Assembly: GCF_008710745.1 (NCBI RefSeq)
Contig: NZ_VYSA01000001.1
Location: 806,001 to 870,000, forward strand
From: Microbacterium rhizomatis
GTDB taxonomy: Bacteria; Actinomycetota; Actinomycetes; Actinomycetales; Microbacteriaceae
Direction: 5' to 3'
Length of the DNA: 64,000 nt
Shown: positions 11,905 to 15,575 of the stretch, piece by piece
Layout: each line of letters begins with the position of its first letter
Position numbering within the stretch: position 1 is the stretch's first letter
Notes under the pieces: model-generated
What the model was told of the DNA's origin: nothing
The model's input: only the letters and a program-made list of their open reading frames with translations
The model's database searches: none
Made by a program: the position numbers and the translations under genes

Positions 11905-12501
11905 TCAGGGGACGGGTATCGTCCGCGGCCGCCACGCCTCCCGGCGGGCCTCGAACTGCGCGATCTTGTCTTCGCTGCGCAGCGTGAGCCCGATGTCGTC
12001 GAGCCCTTCGAGAAGCCGCCACCTAGTGTAATCGTCGATGTCGAAAGCGACCGTGAGGTCACCGATCGTCGCGCGCCGCGCTTCGAGGTCGACCGTCATC
12101 GTGGTGCCCGGTTCGGCGTCGATGCGCGCCCAGATGCGCTCGAGGTCGTCCTCGGTTATGAGGCCGGTCACGAGACCCTGCTTGCCCGAGTTGCCGCGGA
12201 AGATGTCTCCGAACCGAGGGCTCAGGACGACGGCGAACCCGAAGTCGCGCAGTGCCCATACCGCGTGCTCGCGGCTCGAGCCGGTGCCGAAGTCCGCACC
12301 TGCGACCAGGATGCTCGCGCCCTGGAAGGCGGGCTGGTTCAGCACGAACTCGGGGTCCTGCCGCCAGGCGGCGAACAGGGCGTCGTCGAAGCCCGTCTTC
12401 GTCACGCGCTTGAGGTAGACCGCGGGGATGATCTGGTCGGTGTCGACATTCGACCGCTTCAGCGGCGCGGCGATACCGGTGTGCGTCGTGAACTTGTCCA
12501 T
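11905..12501 (-). CDS. leuD: 3-isopropylmalate dehydratase small subunit
   Basis: Swivel-domain subunit of isopropylmalate isomerase in leucine synthesis. The 198-residue protein has the conserved [10 protein letters not shown] segment near the N-terminus and the substrate-binding GTGSSREHA motif. Its ATG is 1 base downstream of the leuC stop codon, so leuCD is translated as a tightly coupled pair. Confidence 0.97.
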
Positions 12502-12502
12502 G

Positions 12503-13957
12503 TCAGGCCTCGACCTTCTGCAGGGCGGGGAGATCGCTGGGACTGGAGAGCGTCCCGCGCACGGCCGTGGCCGCCGCGACGAGGGGTGACACCAGATGGG
12601 TGCGGCCGCCCTTGCCCTGGCGTCCTTCGAAGTTGCGATTGGATGTCGACGCGCACCGCTCACCGGGCGCGAGCTGATCCGGGTTCATGCCCAGGCACAT
12701 CGAGCACCCGGCGAAGCGCCATTCGGCGCCGAACGCCTCGACGATCTTGTCGATCCCCTCGGCCTCGGCCTCGAGTCGCACGCGGGCCGATCCCGGCACC
12801 ACCATGACGCGCACACCGGGGGCCTTGGTGCGGCCTTCGATGATCGACGCGAAGGCACGGAGGTCTTCGATGCGGCTGTTAGTGCACGAGCCCATGAACA
12901 CAGCATCCACCGACACGTCCTTCATGGGCGTCCCCGCAGCGAGATCCATGTATTCCAGAGCGCGTTCCGCAGCGGCCCGTTCGTTGGGATCGGCGATGTC
13001 GGCAGGCGTCGGCACGACGTCCGAGAGCGAGACACCCTGCCCGGGGTTCGTGCCCCACGTCACGAACGGCTCGAGCTCATTCGCATCGAGGAAGACCTCG
13101 GCGTCGAAGACGGCGCCCTCGTCGGTGGGGAGGGTCTGCCAGTAGGCGACCGCCGCGTCCCAGTCGGCGCCCTGCGGCGCGTGCGGCTTGTCTTTCACAT
13201 ATGCGAAGGTCTTCTCGTCGGGGGCGACCATGCCTGCTCGCGCGCCCGCCTCGATCGACATGTTGCAGATCGTCATGCGCCCCTCCATCGAGAGGGCGCG
13301 GATCGCACTGCCGCGGTACTCGAGCACGTAGCCCTGCCCACCGCCCGTACCGATCTTCGCGATGACGGCGAGGATGATGTCCTTCGCGGTCACACCAGGC
13401 TGGAGTTCGCCCTCGACGGTGATCGCCATCGTCTTGAACGGCTTCAGCGGCAGGGTCTGCGTCGCCATGACGTGCTCGACCTCGCTCGTGCCGATGCCGA
13501 AGGCCATCGCGCCGAAGGCGCCATGGGTCGAGGTGTGGGAGTCGCCGCACACGACAGTGATTCCCGGCATCGTGAGCCCGAGCTGGGGGCCGACGACGTG
13601 CACGATCCCCTGCTCTTTGTCGCCGAGCGAGTGGATGCGCACACCGAATTCCTCGGCGTTCCGGCGGAGCGTCTCGATCTGCGTCCGGCTCGTGAGGTCG
13701 GCGATGGGCTTGTCGATCGCGAGCGTCGGGGTGTTGTGGTCCTCTGTCGCGATCGTGAGATCGACCCGGCGAAGGGGCCGCCCCTCGGCGCGGAGGCCGT
13801 CGAACGCCTGCGGACTCGTCACCTCGTGCACGAGATGCAGGTCGATGTAGATGAGGTCGGGTTCGCCGTTCTCGCCCTTCACGACGAGATGGTCGTCCCA
13901 CACCTTCTCGGCGAGGGTGCGAGGGCGGTCGGGAATCGTGGAAATGGGGGTGCTCAT
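12503..13957 (-). CDS. leuC: 3-isopropylmalate dehydratase large subunit
   Basis: Catalytic [4Fe-4S] subunit of isopropylmalate isomerase, converting 2-isopropylmalate to 3-isopropylmalate. The 484-residue protein carries the three cluster ligands Cys358 (GSCTN), Cys418 and Cys421 (CSMC). The start ATG has an AGGAG-type site about 9 bases upstream. A leader peptide gene and a strong stem-loop lie 45-115 bases upstream, suggesting leucine-dependent attenuation. leuA and leuB are not in this window. Confidence 0.97.
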
Positions 13958-14003
13958 TGCTCCGTCGTTCTCCTGAAGAAGAGGATCAAGCCCGCAGTGA
14001 ACT

Positions 14004-14042
14004 CCGCGACGAGGGAGGCCTGGGAATTAGGACTCGTCGCGG
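14004..14042 (-). promoter_or_regulatory. Stem-loop of the leuCD leader (putative attenuator)
   Basis: On the minus-strand RNA the perfect 10-bp arms CCGCGACGAG (14033-14042) and CTCGTCGCGG (14004-14013) enclose a 19-nt loop. The first arm overlaps the Ser-Arg-Asp-Glu codons of the leader peptide and the loop contains its stop codon. Ribosome position on the leader should therefore decide whether the stem forms. There is no clear U-run, so premature termination, Rho action or masking of the leuC ribosome site are all possible. Confidence 0.6.
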
Positions 14043-14071
14043 CTGCTAAGGAGAAGGCGAGCGATCCGCAC
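14027..14071 (-). CDS. leuL: Leucine-rich leader peptide of leuCD
   Basis: A 14-codon reading frame, VRIARLLLSSRDES, starting with GTG and ending TAA. It has three consecutive Leu codons (CTT CTC CTT). CTT is rare in this GC-rich genome, as expected for a sensor of charged tRNA-Leu. TAGTCT (14078-14083) lies exactly 6 nt upstream of the GTG, so the leader would be translated from the very 5' end of the mRNA. It lies about 70 bases upstream of leuC on the same strand. Leu leader peptides before leu genes are known in actinobacteria; that this one is functional is inferred. Confidence 0.62.
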   Translation of the reverse strand: MRIARLLLSSRDES

Positions 14072-14077
14072 CTGAGC

Positions 14078-14083
14078 AGACTA
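14078..14083 (-). promoter_or_regulatory. -10 element of the leuCD transcript
   Basis: TAGTCT matches the actinobacterial TANNNT -10 consensus and is 6 nt from the leader GTG. No convincing -35 hexamer is present. It would produce an mRNA with about a 115-nt leader before leuC. Confidence 0.5.
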
Positions 14084-14222
14084 CCACCGGCGCACCGGGG
14101 CCCGTCCTGAGCCCAGCGTGTCGGCCGTCCCGGTCGCGTCGTAACACTGCTTCTCATTCGATCGGGATTTCGCGGGGTCCGTGCCACTCTGGGTTGTCCA
14201 CGCACGACCCGGGAAGGCCACG

Positions 14223-15575
14223 ATGACACAGTCCGCCGACGAGGGCTTCACGACTCGTCAAGTCCACGCAGGATCGGATGCCCGTGCCGCGCGCCCGCGC
14301 GCACTGCCCATCTATATGACGGCAGGGTTCCCGTTCGACGGCTTCGACGACGCGGCCGCGCATTTCGACCAGGGCGATGGATTCGGCTACACCCGCACGG
14401 GTAACCCGACCGTCGACGCGGTCGAACGCAAGATCGCCTCGCTGGAGGGCGGCGCGCAGGCGCTCCTGGTCGCGAGCGGTCAGGCTGCCGTGACTGTCGT
14501 CCTTCTCGGACTGGTGTCGGCCGGCGAGCACATCGTGTGCGCCACCCACATCTACGAGGGCACACGCGGACTCATCCTCGACAACCTCGCCCGCCTGAAC
14601 ATCGAGGTCGACTTCGTGGACGACGTGAACGACGTCGCCGAGTGGGAGTCGAAGATCCGGCCCACGACGCGCGTCCTGTTCGCGGAGTCGATCGCCAATG
14701 CCCGCAACGATCTGCTCGACATCGCGTCGATCGCGCGCGTCGCCGACGGTCACGGCATACCCCTCGTCGTCGACAACACCTTCGCGACGCCGTATCTGCT
14801 GCGCCCGATCGAGCACGGCGCAGCGATCGTCGTGCACTCGGCCAGCAAGTTCCTGGCGGGGCAGGGCTCGGTGCTCGGCGGCGTCATCATCGACGACGGG
14901 CGCTTCGACGCGGTCCGCTCCGGAGCGCTCTACCCCCATTTGACCGGGACGGGGCGCCTGGGCGGCTCGAGCCTGGCAGAGCGGCACGGCGGCCTCGCCC
15001 GCATCGCGTATCTGCGCGAGACGGTCGCCCCTCGGCTCGGGCCGACACCCTCGCCGCTCAACGCGTTCCTCGTCGGCCAGGGTCTCGAGACCCTGAGCCT
15101 GCGCGTCCAGCGGCAGTCCGAGAACGCGCTGATCGTCGCCGAGTGGCTCAGCACGCGACCCGAGGTGGCCTCTGTCGACTACGTCGGCCTGCCGTCCCAC
15201 CCCCATCACGCCCTCGCCGGACGCTATCTGGCACGTGGCAACGGTTCGGTGTTCACCTTCACCCTCCGAGGCGGCATCGACGAGGCACGCTCCTTCGTCG
15301 AGGCGCTGCGGGTGATCACGCACATGACCCACCTCGGCGACGTCCGGTCTCTCATCCTCCACCCGGGGACGACGAGCCATGTCCGGCGCACTCCCGAGGA
15401 GCGCGAGGCCCATGGCGTTCTGCCCGGCACCCTGCGCCTGTCGATCGGGATCGAGGACTCCGCCGACCTGATCGCGGATCTCTCGCGCGGATTGGATGCC
15501 TCGCACCCCCCTCTCGAGACCGTCGAGGCGGTGCGCGAAGAGTCCGGCGCGCTCGACGTCGTGGTCGCCGCGTGA
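14223..15575 (+). CDS. O-acetylhomoserine sulfhydrylase-type PLP enzyme
   Basis: Cys/Met-metabolism PLP-dependent enzyme that most likely condenses O-acetylhomoserine with sulfide (or another thiol). The 450-residue length and the [12 protein letters not shown] segment fit the O-acetylhomoserine aminocarboxypropyltransferase branch better than the shorter cystathionine gamma-synthases. The PLP lysine is Lys209 in SASKFLAG, with Asp184 (VVDNTFATP) contacting the pyridine nitrogen. A GGGAAGG site precedes the ATG. The next gene, a flavin monooxygenase, starts within its stop codon (GTGA), linking the two in sulfur assimilation. Substrate is inferred. Confidence 0.85.

Follow-up and report, generated by a model that had tools for sequence, protein, structure and literature searches.

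A LEU-type leucine leader and folded RNA element upstream of leuCD in Microbacterium rhizomatis and other Microbacteriaceae

The leuCD genes of Microbacterium rhizomatis are preceded by a leucine leader and a folded RNA, and our comparison with other actinobacterial genomes confirmed that this observation is real. The region lies in a stretch of 64,000 nucleotides that was analysed as a whole (the window). Judged by its sequence, the element upstream of leuCD is a LEU element, homologous to the copy that stands before leuA. It probably controls the translation of leuCD by translational attenuation, with a leaderless leader that would sense charged tRNA-Leu.

The leuCD leader and its counterparts in other genomes

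The element sits on the minus strand between leuCD and a divergent gene for a PLP enzyme (Table 1). The original prediction, made from the window alone, had listed a TAGTCT hexamer, a 6-nt gap, a 14-codon GTG frame with three Leu codons (two of them CTT), a 10-bp stem and leuCD downstream, and every one of these was found in its place. The 6-nt spacer separates the end of the -10 box at 14078 from the leader GTG at 14071. Within the Leu codons, TTCTCCT (14049-14055) is a full complement of the leuC Shine-Dalgarno (SD) sequence, which itself lies at a long spacing of 12 nt from the leuC ATG. The leuD start follows 1 nt past the leuC stop, and the encoded LeuC is up to 91% identical to LeuC of Microbacterium. 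Between 13900 and 14260, neither an intrinsic terminator nor a consensus sigma-70 promoter with a -35 box was found. Rfam 15 gave no family at the gathering threshold in the window and just two chance-level matches in 13930-14120 (E 7.4 and 7.6), and the window sequence folded singly had an unexceptional energy (z -1.07).

Table 1. Features of the leuCD leader region, in window coordinates.
Feature	Position	Strand	Basis
Extended -10 promoter element TGGTAGTCT (predicted); TAGTCT at 14083-14078, preceded by TGG	14086-14078	minus	sequence
Leader ORF, 14 codons, GTG start, VRIARLLLSSRDES, TAA stop (14029-14027)	14071-14027	minus	sequence; predicted leaderless
Leu codons CTT CTC CTT	14056-14048	minus	sequence
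Hairpin P1, 5' arm CCGCGACGAG, within the leader ORF	14042-14033	minus	sequence, covariation
Hairpin P1, 3' arm CTCGTCGCGG	14013-14004	minus	sequence, covariation; perfect 10-bp stem
P1 loop strand CAGGCCT of the proposed pseudoknot	14022-14016	minus	complementarity
Downstream strand GGGCTTG of the proposed pseudoknot	13993-13987	minus	complementarity
leuC SD, AGGAGAA, partner of the Leu codons	13974-13968	minus	sequence, fold
leuC, 3-isopropylmalate dehydratase large subunit	12503-13957 (ATG 13957)	minus	TIGR00170 and NF004016 above cut-off; PF00330
leuD, 3-isopropylmalate dehydratase small subunit	11905-12501	minus	TIGR00171 above cut-off (11905-12510); start from sequence
Divergent gene adjoining leuC, O-acetylhomoserine sulfhydrylase-like PLP enzyme	14223-15575		below NCBIfam cut-offs of the families shown

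Independent support for the element comes from its conservation in leuC leaders. A scan of genome contigs for LeuC gave 597 candidate stretches, of which the best 80 were retained, and a covariance model (R1) was trained on the window together with 17 other leuC leaders. Of the 26 named Microbacteriaceae loci among these best 80, 18 had an element upstream of leuC by R1, as did none of the 54 other loci, one of which is from an unclassified MAG; 17 of the 18 positive loci were in the training set, so that the count shows location rather than significance. R1 recovered the window copy from its own genome at E 1.3e-17, the window row being part of the training set. Across 199 genomes of the family, R1 matched 192 (two or three copies in 127, one in 65 and none in the remaining 7). 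It matched 30 of 296 genomes in a phylum sample, a run that says little on true absence given its single-family training and strict filters.

A second model, R2, trained on 81 elements of which some came from the family genomes later counted, found an element upstream of leuC (above 30 bits, on the right strand) at 110 of 150 among the family LeuC matches listed (51/60, 32/60 and 27/30 in successive batches); these matches were ordered by likeness to the window LeuC, and distant or unlisted ones may carry the element less often. A LeuC match was present in 192 of the 199 family genomes. When leuC leaders were aligned, the Leu codons and a covarying stem proved to be conserved across many Microbacteriaceae, in line with the original prediction: a Leu run of 2-5 codons was present in all 49 leuC leaders, and was at least three codons long in 44. 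The gap between the leader stop and leuC was 56-87 nt in 44 of the 49 copies, with the automatic choice of gene start off in some loci (for example four with an apparent gap of 27-32 nt).

The same element recurs before other leucine genes. In the genome of the window, a second copy was found upstream of leuA (blastn E 1.1e-5, 78%), with a model match at 397514-397585 of contig C1 and a LeuA match from 397641. The genes downstream of 134 model matches were LeuA in 81 cases, LeuC in 49 and LeuB in 3, in a set of loci that was picked rather than random, 18 of them for holding leuC; the one remaining match (L179, E 9e-4) had no recognised leu gene downstream and is probably a chance hit. Fifty further loci gave 37 LeuA, 5 LeuC and 7 LeuB, along with one unassigned locus in whose available stretch no leu gene was recognised (L249). 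All LeuB copies were outside Microbacteriaceae.

In each of the 23 family genomes with at least two copies that were examined, one copy preceded leuA and one preceded leuC. Eleven genomes had three copies; the third, examined in eight of them, preceded a second LeuA paralogue (55-58% identity) in all eight. Identity between leuA and leuC copies was 0.730 within the same genome versus 0.699 between genomes (23 genomes), and 0 of 5000 permutations were as high. Concerted evolution of the two copies was considered and rejected, as a genome's own leuA copy was the closest of the 23 in five genomes only.

Some copies outside the leuC position have features of their own. Eleven LEU copies before a second leuA, from several families, have in common a motif resembling ACTTGTCTGAGGAGT that adjoins the -10 box just upstream of the leader and is a candidate operator. 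In family f9, six LEU copies before leuB have TAGTTGGACGTCC upstream, shortly before the leader, and mixed Val, Ile and Leu codons replace the pure Leu run in their leaders. A very short similar frame (..RQALQESMD..) sits in the gap between element and gene at two leuB loci (L181 and L182).

Elements of this kind have a published history. The LEU element that Seliverstov described before leuA in 2005 (PMC1262725) comprises a leader with a Leu run, a hairpin with a pseudoknot, and Leu codons complementary to the SD. The window copy has in common with it the Leu-run leader ORF, the pseudoknot hairpin and the base stem between Leu codons and SD, and the same covariance models detect homologous leuA copies across the order, as well as in part of the phylum. 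The published element stands before leuA, whereas the window copy stands before leuC(D); we take position to be descriptive and not defining, and the name is applied in that paper also to a copy inside a transposase gene. The available text of PMC1262725 contains none of leuC, leuCD and leuB as a whole word. The kind of element is therefore known, while no report of a LEU element before leuC or leuB was found in the actinobacterial literature searched (Neshat 2014, Wolf 2017, Craster 1999 and Lopatovskaya 2010 may hold one).

The closest leaderless precedent is also a leuA leader. LeuL1 of Streptomyces lividans, MRFGLLLLSCRGEGL, was found to be leaderless from RNA-seq and is described as lacking a typical Rho-independent terminator in the parts of the source available (PMC8079986). 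In both respects it resembles what is predicted for the window leader, and it has an LLLL run, but it precedes leuA. Eight leuA matches, all in family f10, encode MRFGLLLLSCRGEGL, identical to the published leader, and carry TAnnnT 9-10 nt before the start, compared with 5-7 nt in the leuC leaders. With these two precedents, the window element is not an isolated oddity.

Classical leu attenuators such as that of the E. coli leu operon instead depend on a terminator, a hairpin that carries a run of U. Attenuators of this class (E. coli leu, C. glutamicum ilvBNC) share with the window the use of codons for the end product, but their terminator was not found here. Canestrari and colleagues reportedly described leaderless polycysteine uORF attenuators in mycobacteria in 2020. 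The mycobacterial uORFs are leaderless sensor ORFs, as is predicted for the window leader, but belong to cysteine genes, and the M. smegmatis case has been termed translation attenuation (PMC13236596).

Promoter, RNA structure and codon choice

A TAnnnT box was present 5-7 nt before the in-frame leader start in all 49 leuC leaders (6 nt in 37, 7 nt in 10 and 5 nt in 2), against a background of 8 in 6961 positions further upstream, and the TG extension of the -10 element was present in 43 of the 49. Leader starts had been chosen with a preference for the TAnnnT box, and hence an independent test was based on TGnTAnnnT. Where this motif occurred in the 70 nt upstream, an ATG or GTG followed 5-7 nt on in every case (43 leuC and 44 leuA leaders). 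That start shared the reading frame of the Leu codons in 42 of the 43 leuC leaders and in all 44 leuA leaders. The sole exception (L193) was attributed by reading to an overlapping out-of-frame ATG. Among 30 distant leuA leaders, eight contained TGnTAnnnT and six of the eight had such a start.

Alignment of leaders with 6-nt spacing on their start codons (36 leuC, 43 leuA) left TGnTAnnnT plus its neighbours as the conserved upstream block; from -60 to -19 of the same leaders, nothing exceeded 0.40 bits and no -35 conservation was seen. TGnTAnnnT is conserved at a fixed distance, and no other conserved block lies upstream; transcripts are predicted to come from a promoter of the extended -10 type and to begin at or beside the start codon. 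A leaderless leucine leader before leuCD, as proposed, would fit this spacing, and 14071 is the predicted transcript start.

Hairpin P1 was paired in 99.8% of cells across 47 distinct leuC elements. Two-sided compensatory changes occupied 18 cells, a number reached by 0 of 500 shuffles, and fell at 3 of the 10 pairs, which 7 of 500 shuffles reached; the number of pair types was not above that of shuffles in the leuC elements (310/500). In 81 mixed elements, P1 was paired in 99.1% of cells, with 62 two-sided changes at 5 pairs (reached by 0 and 1 of 500 shuffles, respectively). These alignments were fitted to the P1 model and so lean towards P1; slid controls scored far lower. A second CGTCG motif is visible downstream of P1 in several leaders.

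The window loop strand CAGGCCT can pair with GGGCTTG, two G-U pairs included, and the corresponding strands co-vary between lineages (GACCGGC/GCCGGTC, GGCCGAC/GTCGGCC and CTAAGCC/GGCTTAG). In a swap test of this pseudoknot, permutations as good as the native pairing numbered 160/1000 for leuC (not significant), 1/1000 for leuA and 0/1000 for all elements, while the same test of the base stem between Leu codons and SD gave 46/1000, 0/1000 and 0/1000; relatedness inflates both. The leuC tests covered 44 rows for the base stem and 48 for the pseudoknot, with starts too near P1 excluded and identical rows merged. For the leuC copies taken alone, the pseudoknot is therefore proposed from complementarity.

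Codon choice provided a cleaner test of the base stem. Native Leu runs of the leuC leaders (47 of 49) paired with the SD at -8.07 kcal/mol on average, versus -6.76 kcal/mol after synonymous recoding that followed the codon usage of leuC. None of 200 recoded sets reached the native value, and the native run beat its own recodings in 35 of the 47 leaders. A leuA set, defined by LeuA identity above 73% and including a few genomes outside the family, behaved alike (50 of 51 leaders): -8.80 kcal/mol native versus -7.21 kcal/mol recoded, 0/200 sets, and a better native run in 37 of 50. The first three Leu codons of the leuA set vary at third positions only.

CTT made up 94 of the 159 Leu-run codons in leuC leaders, as opposed to 3.6% of 1815 Leu codons in leuC genes. 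The original prediction had pointed to CTT as rare, but SD pairing accounts for its use in the leaders better than rarity does. Sensing through rare codons is the less likely cause, given that TTG, CTA and TTA are absent from the leuC runs.

Folding predictions varied between leaders. The minimum-energy fold of the window contains the Leu:SD pairing, which has a low probability of 0.14 in the nested ensemble; this probability exceeded 0.3 in 31 of 49 leuC leaders, 38 of 51 leuA leaders (identity above 73%) and 8 of 30 more distant leuA leaders. SD openness was calculated by nested folding with a ribosome-sized mask, the pseudoknot being outside the calculation. In leuC leaders its mean was 0.30 for the free RNA, 0.47 with the mask on the last Leu codon (up in 42/49), 0.49 with the mask on the first, and 0.35 with the mask at the stop codon (up in 30/49). 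The corresponding values for the window were 0.32 free, 0.45 on the last Leu codon and 0.32 on the first, and in this model the window is not among the clear cases of SD opening.

A proposed mechanism and its alternatives

Sequence comparison shows the parts and their conservation, homology with the leuA element, covariation of P1 and a codon choice that favours SD pairing. From these comparisons we infer where the transcript starts, that leuCD responds to leucine, in which direction, and that the ribosome is the sensor. Transcription would begin at or next to the GTG at 14071, and the 14-codon leader would be read leaderless. With plenty of charged tRNA-Leu, ribosomes would clear the leader, allowing P1 and the pseudoknot to form; together these would put the CUUCUCCUU Leu codons on the leuC SD (TTCTCCT:AGGAGAA) and close it. 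With charged tRNA-Leu in short supply, a ribosome would wait on the Leu codons, covering them and the 5' arm of P1, so that the SD would be free and LeuCD would be made. The Leu codons would serve as sensor and anti-SD in one.

We favour translational attenuation because the Leu codons have the SD as their conserved partner and no intrinsic terminator was found between 13900 and 14260. Classical attenuation by a terminator was rejected on the latter count. Of the original prediction, the Leu leader peptide is supported; the attenuator is probably not of the terminator type.

A different reading has been argued for leuA. According to the available text of PMC1262725, S. coelicolor mutants in the leuA Leu codons had some effect at odds with classical attenuation (its Background) or no influence on regulation (its Conclusion), and from these mutants and the co-occurrence of ML1624 orthologues the paper argues for a protein ligand. 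The folded element would then be the site of a leucine-responsive RNA-binding protein of the helicase-like ML1624 family, with the leader ORF lightly involved, and the strong conservation of the P1 stem and its surrounding sequence would suit such a site. We consider this unlikely for leuCD, as a protein site needs neither the fixed distance from -10 box to start, nor a start in the frame of the Leu codons, nor third-position-only variation of the first three Leu codons in the leuA set.

Transcripts could also be ended between the leader and leuC, by Rho or by RNA polymerase pausing, whenever no ribosome waits. The gap of 56-87 nt leaves room for this, Rho has been suggested for terminator-less cys leaders (PMC1262725), and a leuA leader transcript has been described in C. 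glutamicum (PMC4046766). We nevertheless regard such control as improbable, since no intrinsic terminator was found and a purely transcriptional switch would need neither pairing between Leu codons and SD nor a codon choice that favours it.

That the leader simply raises basal translation of leuCD, as a loading platform or through reinitiation and without sensing leucine, seems very unlikely. Korolev et al. (PMC4833913) proposed in 2016 an antenna role for short leader genes near their gene, but in the parts of that paper available the role is argued for short distances (a peak at 10-11 bp in Actinobacteria), whereas the gap seen here, 56-87 nt in 44 of 49 leuC copies, is long for reinitiation. 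Such a role would also leave the Leu run and the stem unexplained. Short frames are common in GC-rich intergenic DNA, and the window fold energy is ordinary; a chance coincidence of frame and stem is nonetheless refuted by the element's presence at most of the family leuC regions listed, by covariation and by leuA homology, and we give it next to no weight.

NdgR and the control of leuC in Microbacteriaceae

In S. coelicolor, the binding targets of the IclR-type regulator NdgR are the intergenic region between ndgR and leuC and further leucine genes (PMC4340878). Among the best 80 of 597 stretches, an NdgR-like gene lay divergently beside leuC in 52 of the 54 loci outside the named Microbacteriaceae, the exceptions being the unclassified MAG (L040, with 1659 nt of upstream sequence) and a Streptomyces locus (L050). 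It was found beside leuC in none of the 26 Microbacteriaceae loci of the same 80, one of which (L013) had 606 nt upstream. Pfam found IclR domains in two NdgR queries.

Genome-wide searches at E 1e-40 or better found NdgR in 0 of 199 family genomes. A search of an order sample served as the positive control for this empty result, and detected NdgR in 222 of 248 genomes (222 of the 230 non-family genomes and 0 of the 18 family members). In the genome of the window, distant IclR proteins only were found (best 33% identity, E 1.1e-12). With NdgR detected at this threshold in 0 of 199 family genomes, against 222 of the 230 others in the order sample, Microbacteriaceae appear to have lost it, and the RNA element may have replaced it at leuC.

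Eight of the 26 named Microbacteriaceae loci in the best 80 had neither a LEU element nor NdgR at leuC; they include Curtobacterium, Frigoribacterium, Salinibacterium, Agrococcus and Rhodoluna. NdgR is retained in family f9, where LEU copies precede leuB. We are evenly divided on a replacement of protein by RNA in which NdgR/LtbR was lost and control of leuCD went to a LEU element that was presumably copied from leuA. LEU would then be a movable module that families have placed before leuA, a second leuA, leuB or leuC, and would make up an RNA-based leucine regulon whose sensor codons are the anti-SD.

Descriptions of LEU elements before leuA date back to 2005, with their mechanism left open in the available text of PMC1262725. 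The leuC copies, with SDs, codons and loops of their own, offer a natural replicate for studying this mechanism, and they extend the set of candidate leaderless regulatory ORFs. Leu codons that pair with the SD also offer a reason for the confusing Streptomyces leuA mutants, in which sensor and lock would have been removed together. For the Microbacteriaceae, the apparent family-wide loss of NdgR, along with an RNA element at leuC in many of the genomes listed, makes a clear case for studying how an operon may change from control by a DNA-binding protein to control by an RNA.
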